Shown: piece after piece, positions 18,654 to 52,448 of the stretch
Position numbering within the stretch: the first letter of the stretch is position 1
Layout: every line of letters begins with the position of its first letter
Assembly (NCBI GenBank): GCA_904419875.1
Contig: CAJFTG010000005.1
Coordinates: 31,230 to 95,229, forward strand
Direction of reading: 5' to 3'
Length of the DNA: 64,000 nucleotides
From: Candidatus Avimonas caecicola
GTDB taxonomy: Bacteria > Bacillota > Clostridia > Oscillospirales > Acutalibacteraceae
The notes under the pieces: generated by a model
The model's database searches: none
What the model was told of the DNA's origin: nothing
Seen by the model: only the letters and a program-made list of their open reading frames with translations
Made by a program: the position numbers and the translations under genes

Positions 18654-18923
18654 CTACAGGTTCATAATCAGCTTGACCACCAGCATGGCAACCACACCGG
18701 GAATTCCCAGCACGACGCAGCTCAGCCCGGTAAACAGGTTCAGCCCGATCGATACGCTGGTAAACGCGCCGGCGATGTTGACGGCCGCCAGCGCGCAGAG
18801 CCCCTGCGCCCCGGAGCCTACCAGGCTGCGCACCGGTCTCTTGGTTTTGACAAGCGCAGCCAGCACAGCGACGGCGATCCCCGCCGCCAGAACCCAAAGC
18901 AGAATTTGCAGCCACAAGCTCAT
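18654..18923 (-). CDS. bofA: Pro-sigmaK processing inhibitor BofA family protein
   Basis: ORF 89 aa; VRSLVGSGAQGLCALAAVNIAGAFTSVSIGLNLFTGLSCVVLGIPGVVAMLVVKLIM is BofA-like. Next to a YaaL-like gene. Confidence 0.85.
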   Translation of the reverse strand: MSLWLQILLWVLAAGIAVAVLAALVKTKRPVRSLVGSGAQGLCALAAVNIAGAFTSVSIGLNLFTGLSCVVLGIPGVVAMLVVKLIMNL

Positions 18924-18971: not shown

Positions 18972-19241
18972 TCACACGCTCTTTTCCGCGGCCTCCTCCG
19001 GAAAGGAATACCGGGCGGCCGTCACTCCCTGGCTTTTGGCGCAGCGCAGCAGATAACGGTAACGGGCGCGCAGCGACTCCAGCTCATAGATGCAGGCCTC
19101 GATCATGTCCCCGTCGCTCTCCATGGAAAAACGCGCGTTCACATTGTCCATCTGGGCGCAGACATCCCGGATGGCGGTCAGCAGCTCATCGGGTTCCTCC
19201 ACCGGCGTCTTTAATATAGCCTTTCGAATGGCTCCCTCCAT
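18972..19241 (-). CDS. YaaL/DUF2508-like protein
   Basis: ORF 18972..19304, likely start MEGAIRK at 19241; ACIYELESLRARYRYLLRCAKSQGV. Adjacent to bofA as in Bacillus. Confidence 0.7.
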   Translation of the reverse strand: MEGAIRKAILKTPVEEPDELLTAIRDVCAQMDNVNARFSMESDGDMIEACIYELESLRARYRYLLRCAKSQGVTAARYSFPEEAAEKSV

Positions 19242-19428
19242 GATTTTCCCGCCTTTCACAAAATGGATATGCATAGTATTGGCAGAATATGCCGCGGTAA
19301 TCACCGGGGTTCCCGCCGCCGGTTATCTTTTTCCCGCCCTCTTCCCGCCTTCCCGCCTTCCCGCCTCCCCGTCTCTACATCTCTCCATCTCCCGTTTCCT
19401 CCGCGGCCACTTGGCCGCTTCTTTGCCG

Positions 19429-19490
19429 CCTGTTCATGCCTGTTCATGCCTGTTCATGCCCGTTCGTGCCCGTTCGTGCCCGATCCCGTT
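19429..19490. repeat. Degenerate 10-bp tandem repeat (CCTGTTCATG x3, CCCGTTCGTG x2)
   Basis: Direct reading; exact 10-base register. Confidence 0.9.
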
Positions 19491-19830
19491 CACGTCTTTG
19501 CGCTGCCTCCCCCGTCCAATGCCCTCTGCCCCGCCCCCTGCCCCGCCCCTGCGCTTTATTCGCTCTATTCGCTCCTTTTGTTCCCTTTGCTCCCCTTGTT
19601 CCCCTTGTCCCCCCGTTCGCCTCCATGCTGCCATCCTGCCATATTTCCTATATTTATATACCTGGGGGACAGCCGGGGAACAGCAAGGAAGAGGAACCAA
19701 CCGGGGGGAGGCAGAAGTGGAGGAAGGGGGGAAGAGAGGGGAAGAGAGAAAAAGGGGAAGGAATGCAAAGAATACAAAGAAAAAAGGAATGAAGGGGTGA
19801 AAAGGGACGGGCAAGGGGGCTCCCGCCCCA

Positions 19831-20036
19831 TTCCCGTGCTTATCCGCGCCTGCCCGTACTTGCCTGTATTGGCCCGTACTTGCCTGTCCTTACCCGTACT
19901 TACCCGCACTTATCCGGGTCTGTCTGCCTCTGTCCGCTTACTCCCCTCCTTTTCCACCTTTCTCCGCCCTCTTTTTCCCTCCTTTTCCTCTCCTGCCCTC
20001 CCCTGCCCTCTCCTGCCCTCTCCTGCCCTACTCTTT
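19831..20036. repeat. Degenerate 10-bp tandem repeats (TGCCCGTACT / TGCCTGTATT / TACCCGCACT..., then TGCCCTCTCC)
   Basis: Direct reading; two 10-bp period arrays separated by a polypyrimidine stretch. Confidence 0.85.
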
Positions 20037-20062
20037 ATCTGACCTGCCCGGCTTTCACCCGG

Positions 20063-20091
20063 TTGACAGGGCTTTTGCCTGCGCGTACAAT
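20063..20091 (+). promoter_or_regulatory. SigmaA-type promoter, TTGACA-17-TACAAT
   Basis: TTGACA 20063-20068, TACAAT 20086-20091, upstream of the YgjP-like gene. Confidence 0.75.
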
Positions 20092-20129
20092 AAACAATAA
20101 TCAGGAATATATAATAAGGAGGAGGCGCC

Positions 20130-20858
20130 GTGATGTCCGGAAGGGAAAAGGAAGCCGAGCGTGTACAGGCGCGGCGGACGGACGGGATGGAGTATTCCCT
20201 GATCCGTTCGTCCCGCCGCACCCTGGCCCTTTACATCCTGCCCGACGGCCGGGTGGAGGCGCGAGCACCCCGCCGTCTCCCCCTGCGGGAGATTGAGCGC
20301 TTTCTGGCGGAAAAAAGAGACTGGATCCGCGCCGGGCAGGAAAAGGCCGCCGCCCGCCGGGCTGAGCAGGAGGCCCTGCGGCCCGCCGTCGGGGGAACGC
20401 TCCCTCTGGAAGGCCGGGAATACCCGGTCGCCGCGGGTGCTGCCTTCGGTTTTGACGGGAATCGGTTTTTCTTCCCTCCGGAGGGATGGCCGGCGGTCCG
20501 GGAAGCGCTGACCGCGTTTTACCGGGAACGGACCGAACGGCTGCTGCGCGCGCGGCTGGACCGTTATGCGGATAGGGCCGGCGTTCGTCCGGTATCCGTC
20601 CGGGTCGGCTCCGCCGTCCGGCGCTGGGGCTCCTGTTCCGGCCGGGGCGGGCTCCGTTTTTCCTGGATGCTGGCCGCCGCCGGGGAGCGGGAGGCGGATT
20701 ACGTCATGGTTCACGAGCTCTGCCACCTGCGGGAGCACAACCACTCCCCCGCCTTTTGGCGGCTGGTGGAAGAATTGCTCCCCGACTACCGGGAGCGCCG
20801 GGCGATGCTCCGCCGGACGGAGCGGCGGGTCGCCGCGCTCACCCGGTCCGATGAGTAA
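20130..20858 (+). CDS. YgjP-like (DUF45) zinc metallopeptidase
   Basis: ORF 242 aa; VMVHELCHLREHNHSPAFWRLVEELLPDYRERRAML. Confidence 0.88.
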   Translation: MMSGREKEAERVQARRTDGMEYSLIRSSRRTLALYILPDGRVEARAPRRLPLREIERFLAEKRDWIRAGQEKAAARRAEQEALRPAVGGTLPLEGREYPVAAGAAFGFDGNRFFFPPEGWPAVREALTAFYRERTERLLRARLDRYADRAGVRPVSVRVGSAVRRWGSCSGRGGLRFSWMLAAAGEREADYVMVHELCHLREHNHSPAFWRLVEELLPDYRERRAMLRRTERRVAALTRSDE

Positions 20859-20874: not shown

Positions 20875-21603
20875 ATGGAAAACGCAATGGAACAATTCCG
20901 GCAGTGGGTGGGAGAAAGCCGCCGCCTGGTCTTTTTCGGCGGAGCGGGCGTCTCCACCGAAAGCGGCATCCCCGATTTCCGCAGCACCGACGGACTGTAT
21001 CACCAGCAGTACCGTTATCCGCCCGAGACCATTTTATCCCACACCTTCTTTCAGGAACAGCCGGAAGAATTCTACCGCTTTTACCGGGAAAAGCTGCTCT
21101 GCCCCGGCGCCCGGCCCAACCGTGCGCACCGGGTTCTGGCCCGATGGGAGGAGGAGGGACGGCTGGATGCTGTGATCACCCAGAACATTGACGGACTGCA
21201 TCAGGCGGCCGGAAGCCGGCGGGTGCTGGAGCTGCACGGCTCGATCTACCGAAATCACTGCCTGCGCTGCAGCCGCCTATACGGGCTGGAGGCCGTTGCA
21301 CAAGGCGTGGGCGTCCCGCGCTGCGCCTGCGGCGGGATCATCAAGCCGGATGTTGTGCTATACGGGGAGCCCCTGGACCAGGAGGTGATGGACCGGGCCG
21401 TGCGCGCCATCGCCGGGGCGGATCTTCTGATTGTCGGCGGCACCTCTCTGGCGGTGTACCCCGCCGCCGGCCTTCTGCGGTATTACGGCGGGAACCGGCT
21501 GGTGGTGGTCAACAAGTCTCCCACCCCGGTGGACGGGGAAGCGGATCTTCTGTTCACCGGCAATCTGGGGGACGTGCTGACCCGGGCTCAGCCGGCATTG
21601 TAA
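20875..21603 (+). CDS. cobB: NAD-dependent protein deacetylase/deacylase, SIR2 family
   Basis: ORF 242 aa; FFGGAGVSTESGIPDFRSTDGLY, ITQNIDGLHQAAGSRRVLELHGS, CxxC zinc pairs. Confidence 0.95.
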   Translation: MENAMEQFRQWVGESRRLVFFGGAGVSTESGIPDFRSTDGLYHQQYRYPPETILSHTFFQEQPEEFYRFYREKLLCPGARPNRAHRVLARWEEEGRLDAVITQNIDGLHQAAGSRRVLELHGSIYRNHCLRCSRLYGLEAVAQGVGVPRCACGGIIKPDVVLYGEPLDQEVMDRAVRAIAGADLLIVGGTSLAVYPAAGLLRYYGGNRLVVVNKSPTPVDGEADLLFTGNLGDVLTRAQPAL

Positions 21604-22200
21604 CCGCCGGCTGAGCGGGTGTCTTAAAAAGCCCCGGGAGGGTCCTTGACCGGCCGGCGTTTTAAAGACGCATGGAAGCATTTCGTCCCTCGCATCCAGT
21701 GTCCCGCCGCCCGTAAACGGGCCCCCGCTTAACAGACCTTTCTGCGGCCTCTGCCCGCCGCCGGCTTTTTGAACGGCAACCCGCTTCGCCCGATACGGGA
21801 AGCGAACGCGTTTTTCGGGATTTCTCCCCGCCAAGCCGGGGTTCCCATGAACCCGATAAATCCGACCAATCCGACCAGCAGGAAATAGCCGCCGGCGCAG
21901 CCGATGGCTTTGCAGCAGACGCCTGAAAGGCTCCGGCGGCGCCGGAGAATGAATGTATGAAGATGCCGACGCCCGCCGCGCAGCGTGCTCTCTGCCCTTC
22001 TCCCCTTTCTTTCCCTTCTCCTCCTTCTCCCTCCTCCTTCTCCCTCTCCCTCGTCCCGAACGGCTTGTGTTCCTTCGCGTTTTCGAAAAGGGGCGCGGCA
22101 CGGCTTTGATGCCCGGTATCTCCGCCCCCTTTCTCGCCTCGTTCTCGCTTTTCTCTTTCGGCCCCCCGCTCCCCTTTTGCCCGCCTCCTGTTTCTTCTTT

Positions 22201-22320
22201 CTTCTGTGGATTTTTATGGATTTCTGTGGATTTCCCTGGAACTTTCAGGGAATGCTTAAGCCTTTTCCAACTACCGATCACTCCCGACCACTCCCGACCA
22301 CTGCCGGGGAGTTTCGAACC
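22201..22320. repeat. Degenerate 10-bp tandem repeats (TGGATTTTTA/TGGATTTCTG/TGGATTTCCC and CACTCCCGAC units)
   Basis: Direct reading in exact 10-base register. Confidence 0.8.
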
Positions 22321-22394
22321 AACAATAGGCACCCCAATTATGCGCTCCTCTTATCTGCGCCGGGAATAATTTCAACAAAATACCGAACAAACGT

Positions 22395-22423
22395 TTGACT
22401 TTCTGTTCCCTCTCTGTTATACT
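22395..22423 (+). promoter_or_regulatory. SigmaA-type promoter, TTGACT-17-TATACT
   Basis: TTGACT 22395-22400, TATACT 22418-22423, upstream of the radical SAM gene. Confidence 0.8.
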
Positions 22424-22497
22424 ATAGCTGTAAACCGTGCGGGAAATCCGGCCTGCATACCGGGCCGCGGGAAACGCAGCGCAAGGGAGGGGCATCC

Positions 22498-50143: not shown

Positions 50144-50851
50144 TTCCCTGGTCAGACCGCTCCCTCCTTCCGATTCAAAATACCTTTATCCGAACCGACA
50201 CTCTTACTATAAGTCCGGACCCCGGCGTTTGTCAACTCCCTTGCACCTGGAAACCGCCGTCAGCGCTTTTCCCCCGGCTCCCAAAGGCCAAACGGCCGGT
50301 TGTTCCCGCCGTATCGCCCCAAACCGGCCCAACGGTTTCACAGAACCCGGACAAGCGCTCCCTGTCCGCCGTCAAAAGCCGGCGGGCGGCAGCCCTGCCC
50401 GAGTGGGCCGGCAGAGCGGCTCCACGCCGGGCCAGGCTTTGAAACGGCCTGTCGGAAAATACCCGATGCGTCGTTTCAAAACCGATATCCCCTAGCCGGG
50501 CCGCATCGGCAGCCCGTTCCGTCACGGGCCTTCGGCTGCCCTCCGGGGACTGTGCGGGGCAGAATCAAAAAAGCAAAAAAGCAAAAAACTTCAAAACGCG
50601 GATACCGCGGAATTTCACGGCATCCGCGCCCGAAGAAAAGACGGCCGGCCGGGCGACGGGGAGGCGGACGCCGGACGGAAAGCCCGGCGGAAAAAGGAAA
50701 GCCGCCGCGAACGGCGCGCGGTCCGTCCGCGGCGGTGCAGGAATGTTGGCTGACAGCGGCCGGAAAAAGCGGTTTCGCTCAAGGACGGAGCCTTGAGCGG
50801 CGTTCGGACAAGAAAGCGGCCTCCTTCGGCCGGCGCGGCTGGTCTGCCCGT

Positions 50852-51073
50852 TTACCGGCAGCACCAAGGCGAAAAAATCCTCGTAATGCGAAGAGCGAAA
50901 ATCTGCGGCGGCATACTGCGGGTCATCACGCCGTTATACCATATGCGGACAAGATCTCCCGGGAAAAAGCCGCGGGTGCTCCGGGCATTGACGACCACAT
51001 CCTGAGAAGTGGCGCGGTCCCTGACAAGCAGACTATTGAACCGGACCTCCCGTACCGTTGCAATCATGAGCAT
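50852..51073 (-). CDS. Small OB-fold-like hypothetical protein (73 aa)
   Basis: Strong RBS GGGAGGTGAG upstream of ATG 51073; IATVREVRFNSLLVRDRATSQDVVVNARSTRGFFPGDLVRIWYNGVMTRSMPPQIFAL. Confidence 0.65.
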   Translation of the reverse strand: MLMIATVREVRFNSLLVRDRATSQDVVVNARSTRGFFPGDLVRIWYNGVMTRSMPPQIFALRITRIFSPWCCR

Positions 51074-51733
51074 GGTTTCTCACCTCCCGTACCACTCTAT
51101 GCCGCAGGAACCGGGAATGACTTACAGGAATTGGGAAGCCCCAGTTTCATCAATGCGCCGCCACGCGGGCAAGCGTTTTAAGGCAGCCCCGCGTCCGTTT
51201 CCCGCTTCAAAATGATTTTGCTGAAACCATGCCTTTTCTCGGAAAACAAAGCGTATTCCTTCATTAATTTTTGCGTCCATATGAGGTACAGGTTGGCAGC
51301 CGTTTCCGGATGGCTGTTTCAAAAGCCCGCGTGATTTTTTCACCTGCCGCGCATCCTATACCGCCCATCATAAACTGGGATGCCAAAATAAATACCGCGC
51401 AGGGGATTCCATCTGTTCCGCCGCACCGTTTTGTTCCTTTCCGGCAACGGTATGGACTTACGGAAACCGACCATCTCTATACGGTTATGGGGTACCTTTT
51501 CACCGGAAACGCCTGGCGAATGCAGGCGTACTGCCATTGGGGGCGTGGATGCATATGCCACAGCGGAATGCTTAAGGAAAAAAGGGCTGTATCAAGCAAA
51601 AACCATTGAAGATCCGGGCGGTATCTTTTTCTGGCGCAAGCCCAGACCTGCGGCCGGCAATTCACCGTGCGTTGCCAACCGTTTGTTATTTGGCGGCCCG
51701 ACCGGAAGGAGGTATCTTTCTGCAACGCCAACT

Positions 51734-51773
51734 TAAGCAGAAAAGGCAGGCCAACGCTTGTCTTTTCTGCTTA
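51734..51773. other. Terminator-like hairpin (AAGCAGAAAAGGCA / TGTCTTTTCTGCTT)
   Basis: TTAAGCAGAAAAGGCAGGCCAACGCTTGTCTTTTCTGCTTAG. Confidence 0.55.
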
Positions 51774-52448
51774 GAAAAGATCCGGAAGTGCCGGGCGCGG
51801 CGGGCATAGCTGACAGCCGCGGCGCGGGATACAGCGGGCAGGGCTGGCGCAGCGGCCGAAACGCCGCGATGGCAGGCGCGGCGGCATTTCAGGCGCCGCA
51901 AGGGGCGAATCGGGGACGAATCAGGGGCGAAGCAAGCCCGAGCCCCCTCCTTTTCCGCCGCGGCGGAATGGACGCGTTCCAAGTCCCCGGCCGAATGTCC
52001 GGGGGGATGCTTGCCGCCCCGTGTCCGCCTCCTCTGCGCAAAAAGCTGCGCACGGCTCGCCTGCCCGGCGGCAATTGCCCTCTCGACGGCGCGCCGCCGC
52101 TGCCAGCTTGTTTCGGGATGTCAGCGGCGCGGATATCTTTTTTGTCAACGCTTGTCACACCGGCGGGACGGCGCGCCGCCGGCTTTTTCTTTTTTTAGCT
52201 TTCAAGCTTTCCGCCCGCCCTTTCGGAAGGAAGCTTTTTGTCAGTGCTTTCCATACCGGCGCGAGCATGAGGCGCGCGTAATAGAACCACCCGATCATAC
52301 GCGCTGTCTTTTCGTCAACCGGCACTGGAGTGAACGGGACGCTGAGGTACAACCGAGGCCATTTGTTACAAAAATGACATTTACATTTACTTTTAGCGGT
52401 TCGACGGTATAATGGTAGTAAAAGCAATGCAAAGGGTGAGAAAAGGAA

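Follow-up and report, generated by a model that had tools for sequence, protein, structure and literature searches.

Short tandem arrays with a preferred 10-bp step in the spacers of Candidatus Avimonas caecicola, a likely residue of a lineage-amplified duplication process

The yaaL-ygjP spacer and its syntenic counterparts

The spacer between the yaaL-like and ygjP-like genes of the gut-type bacterium Candidatus Avimonas caecicola lies in a 64,000-nucleotide stretch of DNA (the window, to which coordinates refer unless a contig is named) and is filled with short tandem arrays and purine- or pyrimidine-rich tracts, which raises the question of whether it is a functional module or the residue of a mutational process. 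The features of the region are as follows.

18654-18923: bofA-like gene, next after the yaaL-like gene (PF07441, E 2.3e-14)
18972-19274, minus strand: yaaL-like gene (DUF2508; PF10704, E 4.9e-8), left border of the spacer
19275-19309: conserved left flank on the yaaL side, tattggcagaatatgccgc / TATTGGCAGAATATGCC, also in relatives (alignment by reading)
19310-20055, approximate limits: ~740 bp of DNA found only here between conserved flanks (syntenic comparison)
19341-19371: 8-bp array CTTCCCGC (TRF, 3.9 copies; lag-8 match 0.72 around 19335)
19428-19480: 10-bp array GCCTGTTCAT (TRF, 5.3 copies)
19578-19613: 9-bp array TTGTTCCCC (TRF, 4 copies; lag-9 match 0.73 from 19545)
19665-19820, plus strand: purine-rich tract, weakly periodic at 10 bp (GGGGAAGAGA x2.1 at 19728-19748)
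19833-19916: degenerate 10/20-bp array CCCGTACTTA / CCCGTACTTGCCTGTACTGA (TRF; lag-10 match 0.57-0.73 in windows 19815 to 19875)
19967-20029: pyrimidine-rich 10-bp arrays, CCCTCCTTTT then CCTCTCCTGC (TRF; lag-10 match 0.77 at 19965)
20063-20092, plus strand: TTGACA-N17-TACAAT, putative ygjP promoter by consensus and conservation; right border, kept in relatives
20130-20858, plus strand: YgjP-like metallopeptidase gene (PF01863, E 1.5e-50)
20875-21603: Sir2-family gene, next after the YgjP-like gene (PF02146, E 3.8e-52)

The gene order bofA-yaaL-ygjP-sir2 is preserved in three relatives, the closest members of the genus compared (genomes G004, G008 and G010), in which the yaaL-like gene is syntenic and 81-88% identical. 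Among the named relatives, Candidatus Avimonas faecium is the closest (YgjP 71% identity); it is probably G010, judging by the same tblastn values. The spacer measures 855 bp here versus roughly 240 bp in G010, 110 bp in G004 and 95 bp in G008, and the ~740-bp insertion corresponds in the relatives to between a few tens of bp and about 150 bp. Since the three relatives agree on a short spacer, gain in this genome is favoured over loss in the others. The spacer after the Sir2 gene (21604-22497) is also swollen (909 bp, versus 217 bp in G004 and 239 bp in G008) and contains 10-bp arrays. Elsewhere in the window, ~2.3 kb at 50144-52448 contain no gene called by a simple gene caller and no Rfam match, which may reflect an exceptionally long spacer or genes that the caller overlooked.

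The initial annotation had described 10-bp arrays near 19429-19490, 19831-19940 and 19995-20036, and these are real: TRF calls period-10 arrays at 19428-19480, 19853-19916 (6.4 copies, with period 20 called too) and 19987-20029 (4.3 copies), and the lag-10 match over 19340-20045 reaches 0.503, where local shuffling gives 0.352 (z 8.8), with z 6.9 at lag 20 and z 3.6 at lag 30 against the same shuffles. The arrays had also been said to lie all in exact 10-base register, which is right for the unit length of these three but not beyond it, given the 8-bp array at 19341-19371, the 9-bp array at 19578-19613 and the absence of a common register. In 60-bp windows, the match at lag 8, 9 or 10 is raised across most of 19305-20050, along which purine content passes from ~0.2 to 0.9 and then to 0.07. 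The purine-rich (~19680-19820) and pyrimidine-rich (~19940-20045) stretches reported initially were likewise seen, with purine fractions of 0.82-0.93 in windows starting at 19665-19755 and 0.07-0.30 across most of 19845-20054, and there is a pure purine run of 45 nt at 19719-19763. The focal insertion is wandering 8/9/10-bp periodic, purine/pyrimidine-segregated DNA.

An inserted mobile element or phage remnant with a repetitive interior would account for about 740 bp that are present here and missing in the relatives. Nevertheless, elsewhere in the genome the insertion has low-complexity matches only, it has no match among 50,697 phage records, and a search of viral contigs for the 20-base array pattern found nothing. 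No Rfam family scores above its gathering threshold, the matches of the spacer being all far below gathering scores and none reaching that level across the whole window. Moreover, local 8/9/10-bp periodicity can be seen in almost all windows along the insertion, and we regard such an element as highly improbable.

Step lengths and units of the arrays in spacers and genes

The genome, a draft assembly of 127 contigs from one strain, was sampled first over 464 kb and finally over 974 kb of 3.21 Mb (~30%), with genes called by a simple codon model. The genome-wide period histogram proposed in the initial annotation, run with TRF on the first 464 kb, gave 96 arrays, among which 25 have period 10 (versus 0 of 6 in a Markov resample), followed by 12 bp with 10 arrays. 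When distinct exact arrays with at least two full unit copies were counted in the spacers (165 kb), 50 loci had 10-bp units, versus 12 for 8 bp, 15 for 9 bp, 11 for 11 bp, 4 for 12 bp, 3 for 13 bp and 10 for 5-7 bp together, with 4 loci for 7 bp. Similarly, exact lag-10 runs of at least 10 bp numbered 56 in spacers versus 1.5 in shuffles, and exact runs at lags 11, 9, 8, 20 and 21 numbered 26, 16, 12, 22 and 6, where shuffles gave 1 to 2.

Four other positions in the window had been listed as 10-bp arrays; those at 22.2, 32.9 and 49.3 kb do have this period, while TRF assigns 11 bp to the one at 23.8 kb. The draft state of the assembly, in 127 contigs, leaves room for an assembly artefact, and a base-composition effect might be suspected as well, but the arrays are short (mostly 2-3 exact copies), imperfect and spread over nearly all contigs sampled, shuffles, including those of local composition, yield almost none, and relatives of similar GC content (0.60 in G008 and 0.625 in G010) are without abundant arrays. 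Periodicity as a mere product of composition was accordingly rejected, and we consider artefact or composition the least probable of all the explanations weighed here. Most arrays with 8-12 bp units (58 of 92) are embedded in more extended, degenerate DNA with the period of the array, suggesting repeated use of zones in which earlier copies are decaying.

Most of the ten-bp units are unrelated in sequence: compared pairwise over rotations and both strands, the 50 units are only slightly more similar than shuffled ones. However, CCTGC/GCAGG occurs in 13 of the 50 where about 3 were expected, so that the process or its hotspots may not be wholly sequence-independent; this pentamer could be a hotspot motif or a primase-start signal. 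The units also segregate strongly into purine- or pyrimidine-rich ones (mean deviation 0.29 versus 0.12 for a binomial), with no transcription-strand rule, given a mean purine content of 0.51 on the coding strand in co-directional spacers. Among nine clean two-copy cases, four share at least 3 extra bases (chance 8%), a weak hint of microhomology.

The 10-bp period is close to one helical turn and the arrays lie in spacers, the focal one between two divergent genes, so that they might be a selected architecture holding sites or bends on one helix face for a nucleoid protein or regulator. The units, though, are largely unrelated, and runs are far more frequent at lag 20 than at lag 21 (22 versus 6), which fits the copying of a 10-bp unit and not phasing to the 10.5-bp helix. 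Shared A-tract curvature fares no better, with an A4/T4 tract in just 4 of the 50 units. Array rates are similar in convergent, divergent and co-directional spacers (0.21-0.44 per kb), and the orthologous spacers of relatives are nearly without arrays. Selection for such an architecture is therefore very unlikely.

The initial annotation had further envisaged that the purine and pyrimidine tracts form H-DNA or a large imperfect fold-back. The 45-nt purine run could adopt an unusual structure, windows with at least 80% purine or pyrimidine make up 5.9% of the spacer windows here versus 0.5-1.7% in relatives, and pairing of the purine tract with 19340-19640 was equalled by 3 of 200 shuffles, a weak signal. 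Conversely, the proposed pairing of 19680-19820 with 19940-20045 was matched by 60 of 200 dinucleotide shuffles, mirror symmetry is limited to one 9-bp arm, and the tract bias, being common to arrays genome-wide, can follow from the copying of biased units. Because the fold-back, mirror and A-tract tests were negative, neither H-DNA, fold-back nor curvature is supported as the cause of the arrays, and a structural element of the H-DNA or fold-back kind seems to us barely credible.

The distribution between spacers and genes is sharply uneven, with 50 ten-bp loci per 165 kb of spacer versus a single one per 794 kb of genes. Within these genes 9-bp units prevail, at 31 loci versus 1 for 10 bp, and their density is 2.4 times that in the genes of relatives (p 0.009). 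The excess of 9-bp over 10-bp units in genes fits one process acting everywhere, the out-of-frame products of which are purged from genes.

Relatives, spacer growth and the process behind the arrays

Ten-bp arrays are rare in related genomes: 131 kb of spacer from G004, G008 and G010 contained 4 ten-bp loci, where 40 would be expected at the rate of the genome under study. In a first, smaller sample, TRF found no period-10 array in the sampled stretches of other relatives. Among spacers of at least 200 bp, 80 of 250 here contain a lag 8-11 array versus 6 of 213 in the three relatives. Still, 10 bp is the most frequent unit among the few arrays of the relatives too, and a weak form of the phenomenon may thus be genus-wide. 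In 137 kb of spacer from diverse bacteria there was no lag-10 run of at least 12 bp.

The arrays also go together with spacer growth, some spacers having lengthened several-fold. In 152 syntenic spacer comparisons, 21 spacers were more than 100 bp longer here and 8 were more than 100 bp longer in the relative, and array-like DNA amounted to 1518 bp here versus 0 in the relatives, with control lags at 0 in both. Among spacers that were longer here by over 150 bp, 8 of 15 contained arrays, versus 7 of 132 unexpanded ones (Fisher p 7e-6, an optimistic value since some spacers of this genome were paired with more than one relative), a set that leaves the focal yaaL-ygjP spacer aside; 7 of the 15 expanded spacers have no array. 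An earlier, smaller test with exact runs gave a Spearman correlation of 0.24 between arrays and spacer expansion (p 0.03). The focal locus is one swollen spacer among many, for which the name of composite module given initially was too strong. By contrast, there is strong support for the idea that the arrays share a generating process without forming one repeat family, namely the sharp 10-bp peak in spacers, the near-shuffled similarity of the units, the nearly empty relatives and the expansion of syntenic spacers.

Taking together the step spectrum, the location of the arrays, their amplification relative to close relatives and their tie to spacer expansion, it is likely that this stretch is the residue of a lineage-amplified tandem-duplication mutational process and not a functional module; we infer mutation, and not selection, as the cause. 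Short segments of unrelated sequence would be recurrently duplicated in tandem throughout the genome, with a preferred step of 10 bp in a range of about 8-13. Point mutation would blur the arrays while fresh duplications restart in the same zones, giving rise to wandering periodic DNA and longer spacers. The products would persist in gene-free DNA, and within genes mainly the frame-keeping 9-bp steps would do so. The DNA-copying or repair machinery of this species seems to make one unusual type of mistake. Replication slippage from ABA to ABABA is a reasonable candidate for the exact event, with somewhat less than an even chance in our estimation, and the 10-bp step could be set by one turn of the helix, by the footprint of a polymerase or by a flap as long as a primer. 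A dedicated or altered replication-repair activity working in 10-bp steps (helical turn or primer length), which would act as a genome-wide mutator, creating new DNA between genes and lengthening spacers in the course of the history of a single species, can be put forward tentatively at best. Mismatch repair is less efficient on larger loops (PMC4060949), so that loops of 10 bases would go unrepaired in bacteria generally; this allows the process to operate, yet leaves its confinement to one lineage unexplained.

In a variant that predicts the same observable from a different molecular event, RNA/DNA primer flaps of ~10-12 nt left by Okazaki fragments would escape removal and be ligated, the step being the primer length. 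Bacterial primers are about 10-12 nt long, and the step spectrum of 8-13 bp with its peak at 10 lies near this value. The CAG/CTG trinucleotide occurs in 26 of the 50 units versus 13 expected; CTG is the primase start of E. coli, although it may not be that of this order. Loss of the flap nuclease Rad27 in yeast favours repeat insertions and ABA-to-ABABA events (PMC5677150). On the other hand, PolA retains an intact 5' nuclease domain, conserved between this genome and the relatives, which likewise carry only the Pol I copy and are without abundant arrays. The flap variant is thus unlikely.

A comparison of repair genes across 12 genomes of the genus tells against the duplication process in general, in that it yielded no candidate accounting for the peculiarity of this species. 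The PolA 5' nuclease is present, and its domain aligns without gaps with those of relatives and has few private changes, whereby a FEN-deficient mutator was rejected. Two MutS_V genes (MutS and MutS2) have long open frames as in relatives, and a mismatch-repair-deficient mutator through MutS loss was discarded because MutS is present. Ku was absent from the genome sequence searched, which dismisses Ku-dependent end-joining duplications here; no reverse transcriptase was found in the same sequence. XseA, RNase HII and SbcD are present, as are Y-family polymerases throughout the genus, with three here. An ATP-dependent ligase was not found in this genome and is present in G010 and, in part, in G004. 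RecJ is present with a second, more divergent copy; the recJ-like genes lie at G000:C104:7-1503 and G000:C122:10481-12082, most relatives have one, and the lower-scoring copy on C122 may be acquired or belong to a contaminating contig. For none of the repair genes tested does this genome differ from all three relatives in the sense that would be required.

The origin of new non-coding DNA in compact bacterial genomes is an open question, as is what determines the step length of short tandem duplications. One dominant step here, rare in close relatives, offers a natural contrast in which the enzyme at work could be sought and the growth of spacers around conserved promoters measured.

Comparison with known repeat systems

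The arrays belong with the long-unit bacterial simple sequence repeats (4-11 bp), as their head-to-tail copies exceed chance and are concentrated between genes, although units of 4-11 bp are generally normal or weakly over-represented in bacteria (PMC4060949). The heptamer repeats of Xanthomonas and Nostoc described by Mrazek and colleagues (PMC4060949, PMC4692102) are likewise short-unit arrays between genes of particular genomes. Those repeats have 7-bp units and one G-rich motif, whereas here units are 10 bp long and largely unrelated, with 4 seven-bp versus 50 ten-bp loci, and the arrays are blurred and accompany spacer growth; our arrays are therefore not of the heptamer type. One proposal explains the 7-bp preference by slippage linked to a polymerase footprint (PMC4692102). 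The spacers of diverse bacteria that we searched show lag-7 and lag-14 runs, matching the published heptamer excess (PMC4692102).

The A-tract periodicity of 10-11 bp in prokaryotes (PMC3431218, PMC3372288) has a similar period but, as reported, consists of spaced A/T runs linked to curvature, whereas here whole units are copied, mostly without A-tracts (A4/T4 in 4 of 50 units, and lag 20 well above lag 21), which sets the arrays outside this class. Nor is the focal spacer an H-DNA element, having no mirror-symmetric purine/pyrimidine tract beyond the 9-bp arm. The signature of the yeast rad27 (FEN1) mutator (PMC5677150) is alike in its insertions within tandem repeats and its ABA to ABABA copies; it differs in that the accessible portion of its description mentions no sharp 10-bp step, and in that the PolA 5' nuclease is intact here.

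In the literature searched, we did not find a sharp 10-bp step, unrelated units and spacer growth combined in one bacterial species, a combination that may still have been reported; long-unit bacterial spacer repeats and the unit-diverse, genome-specific repeats of archaeal Borgs (PMC9879509) are known already. The Borg tandem repeats resemble the arrays described here in being diverse in unit, independently arisen, rapidly evolving and genome-specific, and also in their compositional bias, their keeping of frame in genes and the partial repeats at their flanks. Borg units, however, repeat perfectly, are A-rich and vary in length (18-21 nt in the examples given), with about half of them in genes, and Borgs are extrachromosomal elements (PMC9879509), whereas the arrays of Candidatus Avimonas caecicola lie on the chromosome of a bacterium, peak at a unit of 10 bp and have decayed copies.
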